Shown here: piece by piece, positions 19,588 to 45,955 of the stretch
Position numbering within the stretch: position 1 is the stretch's first letter
Layout: every line of letters begins with the position of its first letter
NCBI GenBank assembly: GCA_022841245.1
Contig: JALHRW010000015.1
Location: 1 to 45,955 of the forward strand
Direction: 5' to 3'
Source: Planctomycetota bacterium
Lineage (GTDB): Bacteria; Planctomycetota; UBA11346
DNA length: 45,955 bases
Translations under genes and position numbers: made by a program
The notes under the pieces: generated by a model
Database searches by the model: none
Told to the model about the DNA's origin: nothing
Seen by the model: the letters and a program-made list of their open reading frames with translations, nothing else

Positions 19588-22164
19588 ATGAACCGCCATC
19601 TCCAACTCGCCCTCTCCGTCCTGCTCGCCATCGGCGGGTTCGCCCTGCTCCTCGCCCTGGTCGCCTACAAGGCTTCGCAGACCGGCACCACCACGCCGGC
19701 GGAATCGCACCCCTTCGGTCCGGCTGGCGCGTGGATCGCCTACGTCCTGCTGCGCGGTTACGGTTTCGCCGCCGTGCTCGTGCCGGTGGTGGCGATCGGC
19801 TGGGCGGTCGGCCTGTGGCGCGACCGCGATCTCAGCGATCCGTCGAAGCGCATCGCCGGGGCGATCATCCTGCTGCCGGTCCTCGCCGGCCTGCTCCATC
19901 TGCTGCCGCGCGGCGTGGGCGACTGGCTGCTGACGCGCTGGGACCAGGGCAATCTCGAAGGACTCGGCGGCGCGATCGGCTTCTGGCTGTGCGCCCCGGT
20001 CAACGGCTGGGCCTCTCCCGGCAGCGACGGCGGTTTCCTGCGCCAGTGGCTCGACACCGCCGGAGCCGCGGTGCTGCTCGCTGGCCTGGGCGTCTTCGCA
20101 CTGTGGCTGATGGATCTCGGCCTGGTCGCCTGGACGCGCCGGCTGTGGTACCTGGCGACCACGCGTCGGGCCGGCAGCGTCGGCAGCGGCAGCGCGGTCT
20201 TCCCCAGCGGCGTCTACCAGGCCCCAGGCGACCCGGTGGCCAACAAGGCGCGCGCCACCACCAGCTTCCGCGAGCTGCAGAAGCGCCTGACCGACCACGG
20301 CGAGCTGCCTGGGCCGAACGACGCCGACGAGATCCTCGCCGCCATCCGCAAGCAGCGCGAGGCCCTCGATGCGCCGCCGGAGGTGGTGGCGCAGGCGCAA
20401 CCGGTCGAACAGGCGCCCGTGACCAGCGACCAGCGACCAGCGACCAGCGACCAGCGACCAGCGACCAGCGACCAGCGACCAGCGACCAGCGACCAGCCGC
20501 CAGCGGCCAGCGACCAGCAACCAGCGACCAGCGACCAGCCGCCAGCCGTCTCCAGCGAGCCCGAGCCGGCCAAGCCGGCCACCAAGCCGAAGCCCAAACC
20601 CAAACCGGCCATCGCCTCCGACTACGCCCTGCCCTCGCCCGACCTGCTGCAGTCGCCCAAGGAGCGCAGCCACGCCGCGCACGAGCAGGAGAAGCAGCAG
20701 ACCTCGAAGGCGATCGAGGCCGCCTTCGCCGCCTTCAATGTCGAAGTCAGCGTGGTCGGCGCGATGCGCGGCCCGACCGTCACGCAGTACGAACTGAAGC
20801 TGCTCGACGAGTCGATGCGGGTGAACAAGGTCGAGGGCTTCGAGCAGGACCTCTCGTTGAAGCTTGGCACCGAGGGCATCCGCATCGTCGCCCCGCTGCC
20901 CAATCGCACGACCATCGGCGTCGAAGTGCCGAACCGCACCAAGGACCCGGTGGTGATGCGCGACCTGGTCGACGAGATCGACCCCAACGTCATGGCCCTG
21001 CCGGTGGTGCTCGGCCGCGACGTCATCGGCCGGCCGCTGATCCTCGACCTGGCCAAGGCTCCGCACCTGCTCGTCGCCGGCGCCACCGGCATGGGCAAGT
21101 CGGTGACGATGAACGCGATGATCTGCTCGATCCTGCTGTTCCGCCGGCCGGACGAGGTGCGCTTCATCATGGTCGACCCGAAGATGGTCGAACTGTCCGG
21201 CTACGAGGACATCCCGCACCTGCTGACTCCGCCGATCACCGACATGACCAAGGCGCACGCCGCGCTCGACTGGGCCTGTCAGACCATGGATGAGCGCTAC
21301 GAAGCGCTGCGTCTGTCCGGCTGCCGCTCGATCGCCGACTACAACGCGCTCGGCGAGGTGGAGCTGCGCTTCCGCCTGGCCAAGAAGGAGGTCCAGCTCG
21401 AGGACCTCGGCAGCGGCGCGCACATGCCCTACATCGTCGTGCTGGTCGACGAGTACGCGGATCTGATGATGGTGAACAAGGAGGTCGAGAAATCGATCGT
21501 CCGCCTAGCCGCCAAATCGCGCGCCTGCGGCATCCACGTCATCCTCACCACACAGCGCCCGAGCGCCGACGTGGTCACCGGCCTGATCAAGTCGAACCTG
21601 CCCTCGCGCGTGTGCTTCCGCGTCGTCGACCGCAACAACTCGCGCGTCGTGCTCGACTCCAGCGGCGCCGAGAACCTGCTCGGCAAGGGCGACATGCTGT
21701 TCCTCCAGCCCGGCACCTCGCTGCCGGTGCGCGGCCAGGGCGTGTTCCTCAAGGACGCCGAGATCACCGCCATCGTCGAGCACGCGCGCAGCCAGGGCAA
21801 GCCGAGCTACGACGAGTCGATCGCCAAGGCCGGCGCCGTCGCCATGCAGGGCGGCGGCCGCGACAGCGGCGAGGAGTCGAGCGACGCGTGGAAGCTCGAC
21901 CGCAAGTTCCACGAAGCGGTGCAGGCGATGTACCGCTACGACAAGACCGGCGCCGACTTCTTCCGCCGCAAGCTGGGTGTGGGCTACAACAAGGCGACCG
22001 AGTACGTCGAGACGCTGGAAGACCTCGGTTTCCTCTCGGGCGCCGCCGGCACCGCTTCGCGCAAGATCCTCAAGAGCTGGGACGACTGGATAGACCTGCT
22101 GAAGGCGAATGGCGTCGAGATGGGCGAGGAGGACGACCTCTACCGCCCGCCGTTCAATACCTAG
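19588..22164 (+). CDS. ftsK: DNA translocase FtsK/SpoIIIE
   Basis: The 858-aa protein (start ATG at 19588; a GTG at 19558 would add 10 residues) has four predicted N-terminal helices within about the first 195 residues. A linker with a heptad repeat (TSDQRPA units, about residues 278-320) and a Lys-Pro tract follows, then the RecA-like motor with Walker A VAGATGMGKSV (about residue 500) and VLVDEYADLM. It ends with a gamma winged-helix domain (KFHEAVQAMYRYDKTGADFFRRKLGVGYNKATEYVETLEDLGFLS). It pumps chromosomal DNA through the closing septum. The linker repeat is encoded by an 18-unit heptamer array, exactly 126 bases, so the frame is kept. It converges with the araC gene. Confidence 0.96.
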   Translation: MNRHLQLALSVLLAIGGFALLLALVAYKASQTGTTTPAESHPFGPAGAWIAYVLLRGYGFAAVLVPVVAIGWAVGLWRDRDLSDPSKRIAGAIILLPVLAGLLHLLPRGVGDWLLTRWDQGNLEGLGGAIGFWLCAPVNGWASPGSDGGFLRQWLDTAGAAVLLAGLGVFALWLMDLGLVAWTRRLWYLATTRRAGSVGSGSAVFPSGVYQAPGDPVANKARATTSFRELQKRLTDHGELPGPNDADEILAAIRKQREALDAPPEVVAQAQPVEQAPVTSDQRPATSDQRPATSDQRPATSDQPPAASDQQPATSDQPPAVSSEPEPAKPATKPKPKPKPAIASDYALPSPDLLQSPKERSHAAHEQEKQQTSKAIEAAFAAFNVEVSVVGAMRGPTVTQYELKLLDESMRVNKVEGFEQDLSLKLGTEGIRIVAPLPNRTTIGVEVPNRTKDPVVMRDLVDEIDPNVMALPVVLGRDVIGRPLILDLAKAPHLLVAGATGMGKSVTMNAMICSILLFRRPDEVRFIMVDPKMVELSGYEDIPHLLTPPITDMTKAHAALDWACQTMDERYEALRLSGCRSIADYNALGEVELRFRLAKKEVQLEDLGSGAHMPYIVVLVDEYADLMMVNKEVEKSIVRLAAKSRACGIHVILTTQRPSADVVTGLIKSNLPSRVCFRVVDRNNSRVVLDSSGAENLLGKGDMLFLQPGTSLPVRGQGVFLKDAEITAIVEHARSQGKPSYDESIAKAGAVAMQGGGRDSGEESSDAWKLDRKFHEAVQAMYRYDKTGADFFRRKLGVGYNKATEYVETLEDLGFLSGAAGTASRKILKSWDDWIDLLKANGVEMGEEDDLYRPPFNT
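20421..20546. repeat. Heptamer array (18 units, mainly GACCAGC) inside ftsK
   Basis: Eighteen contiguous 7-base units: eleven perfect GACCAGC (20421-20497), then CGCCAGC, GGCCAGC, GACCAGC, AACCAGC, GACCAGC, GACCAGC and CGCCAGC. All keep the CCAGC core and vary in the first two bases. The total of 126 bases equals 42 codons. Confidence 0.97.
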
Positions 22165-27040: not shown

Positions 27041-27053
27041 GGCGGGGTCATAG

Positions 27054-27081
27054 CGGCCAGCGGCCAGCGGCCAGCGGCCAG
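27054..27081. repeat. Short heptamer array (4 units of CGGCCAG) between folK and carA
   Basis: Four perfect CGGCCAG units, which are GGCCAGC in rotated phase, are followed by degenerate copies to about 27096. The array sits in the 102-base divergent promoter gap, 14 bases upstream of the folK start and about 60 bases before carA. Confidence 0.9.
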
Positions 27082-27142
27082 GGCCCAGCCAGCTGGTTGC
27101 CATCCTGGCGACAGCCCAACACTCCCGCCCCCGGAGCCGCCC

Positions 27143-29448: not shown

Positions 29449-29483
29449 GCTGGCTGCTGGCTGCTGGCTGCTGCCCGCTGGTT
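29449..29483. repeat. Short heptamer array (GCTGGCT, about 5 units) after mtnA
   Basis: Three perfect GCTGGCT units and two degenerate ones (GCTGCCC, GCTGGTT) begin 6 bases past the mtnA stop, in the gap before rpsO. Confidence 0.85.
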
Positions 29484-29593
29484 GCGCAACTCGTCTTCTC
29501 CTATAGCCTCCCGCCCTCCCAGGCGTGGGTCAGCGTTCACGCGGACGCCTCCCAGGCCCTTCCCAATCCACCCGCACCCCGGGGACGCGTCAC

Positions 29594-34327: not shown

Positions 34328-34858
34328 TCAGGCGTACCAGACGTGGCGGGCGATCTCGTTTGCCACGGTGCGGGGCAGCAGCCCAGCGACGTCTGCGCCG
34401 GTGCGTAGGCGCTCGCGTACCAGGCTGCTGCTGATCTCCGGCAGCGCGCCGGGGTGCCGGTCGTAGCCGCCGCGCGGCACGCAGAGGATCTCGACCAGGC
34501 GCGCGAGGTCGGCGCCACGGTGCCACTTGGGCATGTCCGAGGCCGTGTCCGTCCCGCCGACCAGCAGCCAGCGATGGCCCGGGTTCTCGCGTTGGATCAG
34601 CTCGACCAGGTCGACGGTGTAGCCGGTCGAGCGCAGCTCCTCGTCGCGCAATTCGCAGAATGGCAGGTCGGCGAAGGCCAGCTGGCACAGCTGCCAGCGT
34701 TGGTCCCACGCCGACAGGGCCTTGGCATACGGGTGGTTGGCAGACGGCAGCACCCACACCCGGTCGGCTCCGCCGCACCAGCGCGCCCAGGCGGCCGCCA
34801 GGACGTGGCCAAGGTGGGGCGGGTCGAAGCTGCCGCCGAAGAGGGCGATGGTGGCCAC
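34328..34858 (-). CDS. nadD: Nicotinate-nucleotide adenylyltransferase
   Basis: The 176-aa enzyme adenylylates nicotinate mononucleotide in NAD synthesis. It starts with GTG (34856-34858) and has the nucleotidyltransferase motif GGSFDPPHLGH (residues 8-18) and ISSSLVRERL near the C-terminus (usually ISST-IR). It diverges from htpG; the 209-base gap holds a sigma-54-like promoter and a long heptamer array. Confidence 0.94.
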   Translation of the reverse strand: MATIALFGGSFDPPHLGHVLAAAWARWCGGADRVWVLPSANHPYAKALSAWDQRWQLCQLAFADLPFCELRDEELRSTGYTVDLVELIQRENPGHRWLLVGGTDTASDMPKWHRGADLARLVEILCVPRGGYDRHPGALPEISSSLVRERLRTGADVAGLLPRTVANEIARHVWYA

Positions 34859-34874: not shown

Positions 34875-34890
34875 TGGCACACGGTTTGCA
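34875..34890 (+). promoter_or_regulatory. Sigma-54-type -24/-12 promoter upstream of htpG
   Basis: TGGCACACGGTTTGCA has the consensus TGGCAC at -24, the invariant GG-N10-GC spacing (GG 34876-34877, GC 34888-34889) and TTGCA at -12. Transcription would begin near 34901, giving an htpG leader of about 167 bases that contains the heptamer array. Assignment is by consensus match only. Confidence 0.65.
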
Positions 34891-34929
34891 TTAGACGGGC
34901 GCACTGGGCCAGAACGACCCGGCTGACCA

Positions 34930-35048
34930 GACCAGCGACCAGCGACCAGCGACCAGCGACCAGCGACCAGCGACCAGCGACCAGCGACCAGCGACCAGCG
35001 ACCAGCGACCAGCGACCAGCGACCAGCGACCAGCCACCAGCCACCAGT
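34930..35048. repeat. Heptamer array (17 units, mainly GACCAGC) in the htpG leader
   Basis: Fifteen perfect GACCAGC units (34930-35034) are followed by CACCAGC and CACCAGT. The array ends 19 bases before the htpG ATG and is the longest perfect run in the window. Confidence 0.97.
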
Positions 35049-35067: not shown

Positions 35068-36942
<1,875 letters not shown>

Positions 36943-37062
36943 GCCTGGGGCAATGGCTGGGCCATCTTGGTCAGAATGACCCACCGGCGAGCGGACGCTC
37001 GTCGGCCCTAGGTCGCAACTCGTTGTCATTACGCTCTTTGCGCCACTACGACCCGGCCAGGA

Positions 37063-37079
37063 TTGGCACACCCCATGCT
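37063..37079 (+). promoter_or_regulatory. Sigma-54-type promoter upstream of the receiver-dnaK pair
   Basis: TTGGCACACCCCATGCT carries TTGGCAC at -24 and ATGC at -12 with the invariant GG-N10-GC spacing (GG 37065-37066, GC 37077-37078). The expected transcription start (about 37090) is only 4 bases before the receiver ATG, so its leader would be very short. Match is good but not perfect. Confidence 0.55.
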
Positions 37080-37093
37080 ACCTCCCCGGTGCC

Positions 37094-37462
37094 ATGGCCC
37101 CCGCCAACCACATCGTGCTCATCGCTGACGACGACCGCCTGGTGCGCGAATCGCTCGGCGATGCCTTCGACGGGTTCGGCTGGGACGTGCGCACAGCGGC
37201 CTGTGGCGGCGACGCCATCCGCGTGCTCGAAGGTCAGCGTCTCGACCTGCTCATGTCCGACATCGACATGCCGGACATGACCGGGTTCCAGCTGCTGAGC
37301 TGGGTGCGCGGCCACGCTTCGCAGCCGCCGGTCGTGCTGATGAGCGCGCGCGCCGACGAGGCGCTCGGCCGTACTGCGCTGGCGGAGGGGGCAATCACCC
37401 TGCTGGCCAAGCCGGTCGAAGTCGCTCGGCTGAATAACGTCATCAACTCTCTCTTTCACTGA
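37094..37462 (+). CDS. Single-domain response regulator (CheY-like receiver)
   Basis: The 122-aa protein is a receiver domain only: acidic pocket ADDD (residues 11-14), phosphoacceptor Asp56 in [13 protein letters not shown], the Ser of VVLMSAR, and the conserved Lys in LLAKPVE. No output domain follows, so it must act by protein contacts. It ends 11 bases before dnaK on the same strand, almost certainly one transcript. Its kinase partner is not in the window. Confidence 0.92.
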
Positions 37463-37473
37463 AGGAACATCAC

Positions 37474-39399
<1,926 letters not shown>

Positions 39400-45866: not shown

Positions 45867-45955
45867 GTTGGCCGCTGGCCGCTGGCCGCTGGCCGCTGGC
45901 CGCTGGCCGCTGGCCGCTGGCCGCTGGCCGCTGGCCGCTGGCCGCTGGCCGCTGG
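45867..45955. repeat. Heptamer array (GCTGGCC) running off the window end
   Basis: One GTTGGCC unit is followed by eleven perfect GCTGGCC units (45874-45950) and a partial GCTGG at the last base. The true length is unknown because the window ends inside the array. Confidence 0.97.

Follow-up and report, generated by a model that had tools for sequence, protein, structure and literature searches.

A predicted sigma-54 promoter of htpG is conserved in a bacterial family and probably belongs to a proteostasis regulon with a shared, helically phased palindrome

Sigma-54 is usually associated with nitrogen, motility and the cell exterior. In Escherichia coli, the heat-shock chaperone gene ibpB has a sigma-54 promoter (PMC4316790), in an operon that is also under sigma-32, whereas no RpoH passes its cut-off in the genomes analysed here. 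The hrcA-grpE-dnaK operon of Chlamydia is read from a tandem sigma66-sigma54 promoter (PMC8762339), a sigma-54 input to an Hsp70 operon like the one proposed below, but Chlamydia uses HrcA/CIRCE, whereas the 57 chaperone loci that we searched for CIRCE gave no match with fewer than five mismatches. In Myxococcus xanthus, the NtrC-like response regulator HsfA (of HsfA/HsfB) activates the heat-shock protease gene lonD (PMC9109919, citing Ueki and Inouye 2002), with one heat-shock target named there as against the multigene regulon proposed here. For the Planctomycetota, mainly the Planctomycetia, a 2025 in silico study predicted sigma-54 promoters at groEL, groES, ibpA, grpE, dnaJ, dnaK and protease genes of COG0466/COG0542 (PMC12316311), and that cluster, as far as its accessible text goes, resembles ours in consisting of predicted sigma-54 promoters at chaperone and protease genes. 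The same text lists HSP90 only for Bacteroidia, whereas htpG is a member here, and makes no mention of an activator site in common, of phasing or of a response-regulator-dnaK operon, unlike the present case. The sigma-54 chaperone regulon suggested by the initial annotation of this DNA is therefore supported but less new than thought, given the Planctomycetota prediction visible in that 2025 text. As far as we checked, the htpG member, the family-wide palindrome, the two-sided helical spacing and the response-regulator-dnaK operon are new, and a 2004 paper on a Pirellula activator, to which the 2025 study refers, could contain part of this.

The stretch analysed here (the window) comprises 45,955 nucleotides of a 5.73-Mb genome (548 contigs, 88% complete); its 16S contains GGGAGTATGGTCGCAAGGC, which we take to be the PLA886 probe target, and the host is on this basis probably a planctomycete. 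Within the window, htpG (Hsp90; 35068-36942, forward strand; NF003555, 723 bits against a cut-off of 371) and its divergent neighbour nadD (34328-34858, reverse strand; TIGR00482 above cut-off) flank a 209-bp gap that holds TGGCACACGGTTTGCA (34875-34890, forward strand), oriented toward htpG. From the pattern match and its conservation in the family, we predict this to be the -24/-12 sigma-54 promoter of htpG: it agrees with TGGCAC-N5-TTGCW at 11/11 consensus positions, with no mismatch, and its GG (34876-34877) and GC (34888-34889) are ten bases apart. The near-ideal RpoN site that had been claimed was thus recovered in the correct gap and direction, and transcription would start at 34901 if the C of GC is taken as -12. 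The nadD start codon (34858) lies 16 bp from the site (34875), a distance that forces the nadD promoter to overlap with the promoter or leader of htpG. An exact copy of the pattern was found four times genome-wide, compared to two for the reversed control, and the three other copies fall within open reading frames, so that an exact match alone is moderately unusual and weak evidence. Allowing up to two mismatches, the whole window showed no excess (17 observed vs 19.8 expected). The genome encodes rpoN (one match, PF04552, 194 bits) and about 20 sigma-54 activator domains, the machinery for which a check had been proposed together with the site.

From relatives at family level, whose HtpG proteins are about 58-88% identical, we then retrieved htpG along with the DNA ahead of it, which gave 19 loci with readable upstream sequence. 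A sigma-54-like site precedes htpG at every one of these (19/19, two of them degenerate, the genomes being related bins whose counts are not independent), mostly 40-140 bp ahead of the start codon. GC is retained in 19/19 and GG in 18/19, TGGCA is nearly invariant and the five spacer bases drift; 10 of the 18 scored loci reach 11/11, and poor sites were seen in G011 (score 8) and G014 (reading TAGCAT). The divergent neighbour is nadD at 6 of the 19 loci and another gene at the remaining 13, which indicates that the site travels with htpG and not with the gap. None of 161 predicted background genes on loci retrieved from these genomes is preceded within 215 bp by an 11/11 site, and five are preceded by a 10/11 site; these five include lon and clpB, together with an apparent ammonium transporter gene, a kind of gene classically under sigma-54. 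Outside the family but within the phylum, four htpG genes showed no good sigma-54 site, and a control set from Proteobacteria was limited to 14 usable htpG loci. We regard the conservation across the family as decisive for taking the predicted htpG site to be real.

A comparable site was predicted at the second chaperone operon of the window. TGGCACACCCCATGCT (37064-37079, forward strand), with one mismatch, is the predicted sigma-54 promoter of an operon in which a receiver-only response-regulator gene (37094-37462, forward strand) is followed by dnaK (Hsp70; 37474-39399, forward strand). The site that the initial annotation had placed before dnaK is real, then, although it adjoins the response-regulator gene heading the operon and not dnaK itself. 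This arrangement, with a TGGCA site and GG-N10-GC, recurs at 19/19 family loci, and the dnaK operon begins with the receiver-only regulator in all family genomes that were looked at. An antisense open reading frame over dnaK (37456-38721, reverse strand) matches Pfam PF10712 (NAD-GH), presumably a spurious antisense family. In this genome and its relatives, matching sites were seen at the response-regulator-dnaK operon, groEL, lon, hsp20 and clpB. At groEL, the site, accompanied by the palindrome described below, precedes either groEL or an FmdB gene ahead of it, and sites likewise lie ahead of lon, hsp20 and clpB; for hsp20, clpB and a thioredoxin gene, site and palindrome were seen together in single genomes. 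Curated models identified Lon and HtpG, whereas ClpB, FmdB and thioredoxin were assigned by eye, and Hsp20 rests on a match under the cut-offs of the curated models. One groEL locus (L356, 4845-8987) consists of an FmdB zinc-ribbon gene, groEL, groES and a second groEL, and the FmdB gene of G005, G008, G018 and G019 is provided with a sigma-54 site and downstream palindrome of its own.

These promoters share a second element that the initial annotation did not contain, the palindrome GTCA-N3-TGAC, with the family form GTC[A/G]-N3-[T/C]GAC. In the window, the copy GTCAGAATGAC (extended, GGTCAGAATGACC; 36970-36980) lies 94 bp upstream of the site of the response-regulator-dnaK operon, and a degenerate copy at htpG, GCCAGAACGAC (34908-34918), with GCC instead of GTC, begins 33 bp downstream of the first base of that sigma-54 site, at about +8. 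The palindrome is present at the response-regulator-dnaK operon in 18/19 family loci; at htpG it falls between the -12 element and the start codon in 14/19, the other five being without a clear copy. At dnaK and groEL it mostly precedes the sigma-54 site by 73-107 bp; at htpG and lon it mostly follows the site by 33, 44 or 55 bp, and at fmdB and trx it is downstream as well. A search of 23 genomes for site-palindrome pairs, blind to the genes, yielded 29 matches for the upstream form compared to 3 in reversed controls, and 24 compared to 7 for the downstream form; most of them precede groEL, the response-regulator-dnaK operon, htpG, lon, fmdB, clpB, hsp20 or a thioredoxin gene, and the further matches of this genome are at groEL (C89) and lon (C152). 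Two matches at clpC (L209, L224; spacings 32 and 25 bp, gene start about 195-290 bp off) and single matches at unrelated genes or inside open reading frames (L177, L178, L184, L198, L201 and L225-L227) were taken as chance. Two other single matches fall where no gene is evident (L195) and at an ABC transporter ATPase (L216).

To contact polymerase, an activator has to sit on a constant side of the DNA helix. The upstream site-palindrome distances cluster at 73-75, 83-86, 94-97 and 104-107 bp (with one at 31 and one at 113), and the downstream distances at 33-35, 43-45 and 55 bp (with one at 24). With each gene counted once per genus, the best-fitting period was 10.70 bp (R = 0.87) for the upstream class and 10.55 bp (R = 0.91) for the downstream class, and the joint period was 10.70 bp (R = 0.88), a fit that 0 of 5000 randomised sets (jitter of at most 5 bp) equalled, with a P value to be read loosely because the genomes are related. 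Since the palindrome is common to the promoters and stands at helically phased distances, these data point to a single shared activator.

Taken together, we assign a probability of about 0.85 to the reading that the htpG site is a sigma-54 promoter within a family proteostasis regulon, with one putative enhancer-binding protein acting at the palindrome. On the sequence evidence, the promoter and the regulon appear well supported, and the claim that such a regulon would need an enhancer-binding activator gains from the presence of rpoN, the conserved htpG site, the matching sites elsewhere and the phased palindrome. That the htpG match arose by chance and a sigma-70-type factor transcribes the gene seems very improbable: the genome-wide count against the reversed control, with three copies inside open reading frames, would allow it, and a sigma-70-family factor of about 270 amino acids occurs in most family genomes, but the invariant GC and near-invariant GG across the family and the background genes without such sites argue against it, as does the gap itself, where no sigma-70 promoter match was found, nor around the htpG start. 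RpoH scored above its curated cut-off in 0/23 genomes, and the sigma factor of this genome with the best RpoH score was a better fit to the RpoS and RpoD models.

The palindrome could also be read as the site of a repressor or of another protein that is not an enhancer-binding protein, with the sigma-54 promoters real and each served by a separate enhancer-binding protein. Such a repressor would explain why the palindrome is downstream at htpG, lon, fmdB and trx, and in particular why it is near +8 at htpG and lon, which is a classical operator position; the usual enhancer position at dnaK and groEL and the helical period shared by the upstream and downstream classes speak against it, and for sigma-54 activation both an influence of helical phase and downstream activator sites have been recorded (PMC7408454), so that we consider this reading unlikely. 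The identity of the bound protein raises a further alternative, a nitric oxide-responsive NorR-type protein that binds the palindrome and controls the chaperones. NorR boxes read GTCA-N3-TGAC, as the palindrome does, and this genome has a NorR-like activator gene near an apparent nitric oxide reductase gene (L292, 2879-7776), but close orthologues were found in this genome and G003 only, whereas the palindrome is family-wide. We therefore rejected NorR as the regulator and give this alternative hardly any weight.

Under the preferred reading, a family regulon with one activator at the palindrome, sigma-54 RNA polymerase would transcribe htpG, the response-regulator-dnaK operon, groEL-groES-groEL (preceded by the FmdB gene or not) and lon; in single genomes hsp20, clpB and thioredoxin would join them. 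One enhancer-binding protein would bind GTCA-N3-TGAC upstream of the promoter at dnaK and groEL and, for htpG, lon and fmdB, just past the start, and would open the sigma-54 complex from a fixed helix face, the inducing signal being probably folding stress. The activator may be a protein with FHA, GAF, AAA+ and HTH domains, encoded in this genome at G000:C52:4248-6110, a candidate to which we give odds clearly short of even. Its orthologues occur in 17/23 family genomes, with far weaker hits outside the family; no whole copy was found in the remaining six, whose bins are 61-86% complete, G007 among them having fragments. The gene follows htpG directly in G014 and is oriented divergently from dnaJ-grpE in G002, and adjoins chaperone genes in just these two genomes; in most it adjoins pilT (L283, L290, L291, L348, L351 and L352), an adjacency that may hint at a connection to type IV pili. 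As a further conjecture, the response regulator of the dnaK operon may feed back on the circuit. Heat shock might in this lineage even have been rebuilt on sigma-54, with one dedicated activator (perhaps the FHA-GAF protein, through phosphothreonine) and response-regulator feedback supplanting sigma-32 and HrcA for Hsp90, Hsp70, Hsp60, Lon, ClpB and Hsp20, and with enhancers placed whole helical turns to either side of the promoter, a wider proposal that we put forward tentatively, as possible and not as the expected outcome. If core proteostasis is indeed under sigma-54, the main chaperones would depend on a dedicated sensor protein that opens their promoters with ATP, a logic unlike that of sigma-32 or HrcA. 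The palindrome and its helical spacing offer a direct way to find the activator and to test enhancer action from either side of a promoter.

The leader of htpG is lengthened by an array of 17 copies of the 7-bp unit GACCAGC (34930-35047, forward strand), which lies between the palindrome and the start codon and is missing in the closest relative, G003. Related 7-bp arrays (GACCAGC, GCTGGCC and relatives) occur in the window at 2101-2176, 20421-20539, 27052-27089, 29449-29485 and 45869-45955, and a similar array is located ahead of the FmdB-groEL genes of this genome (L172).
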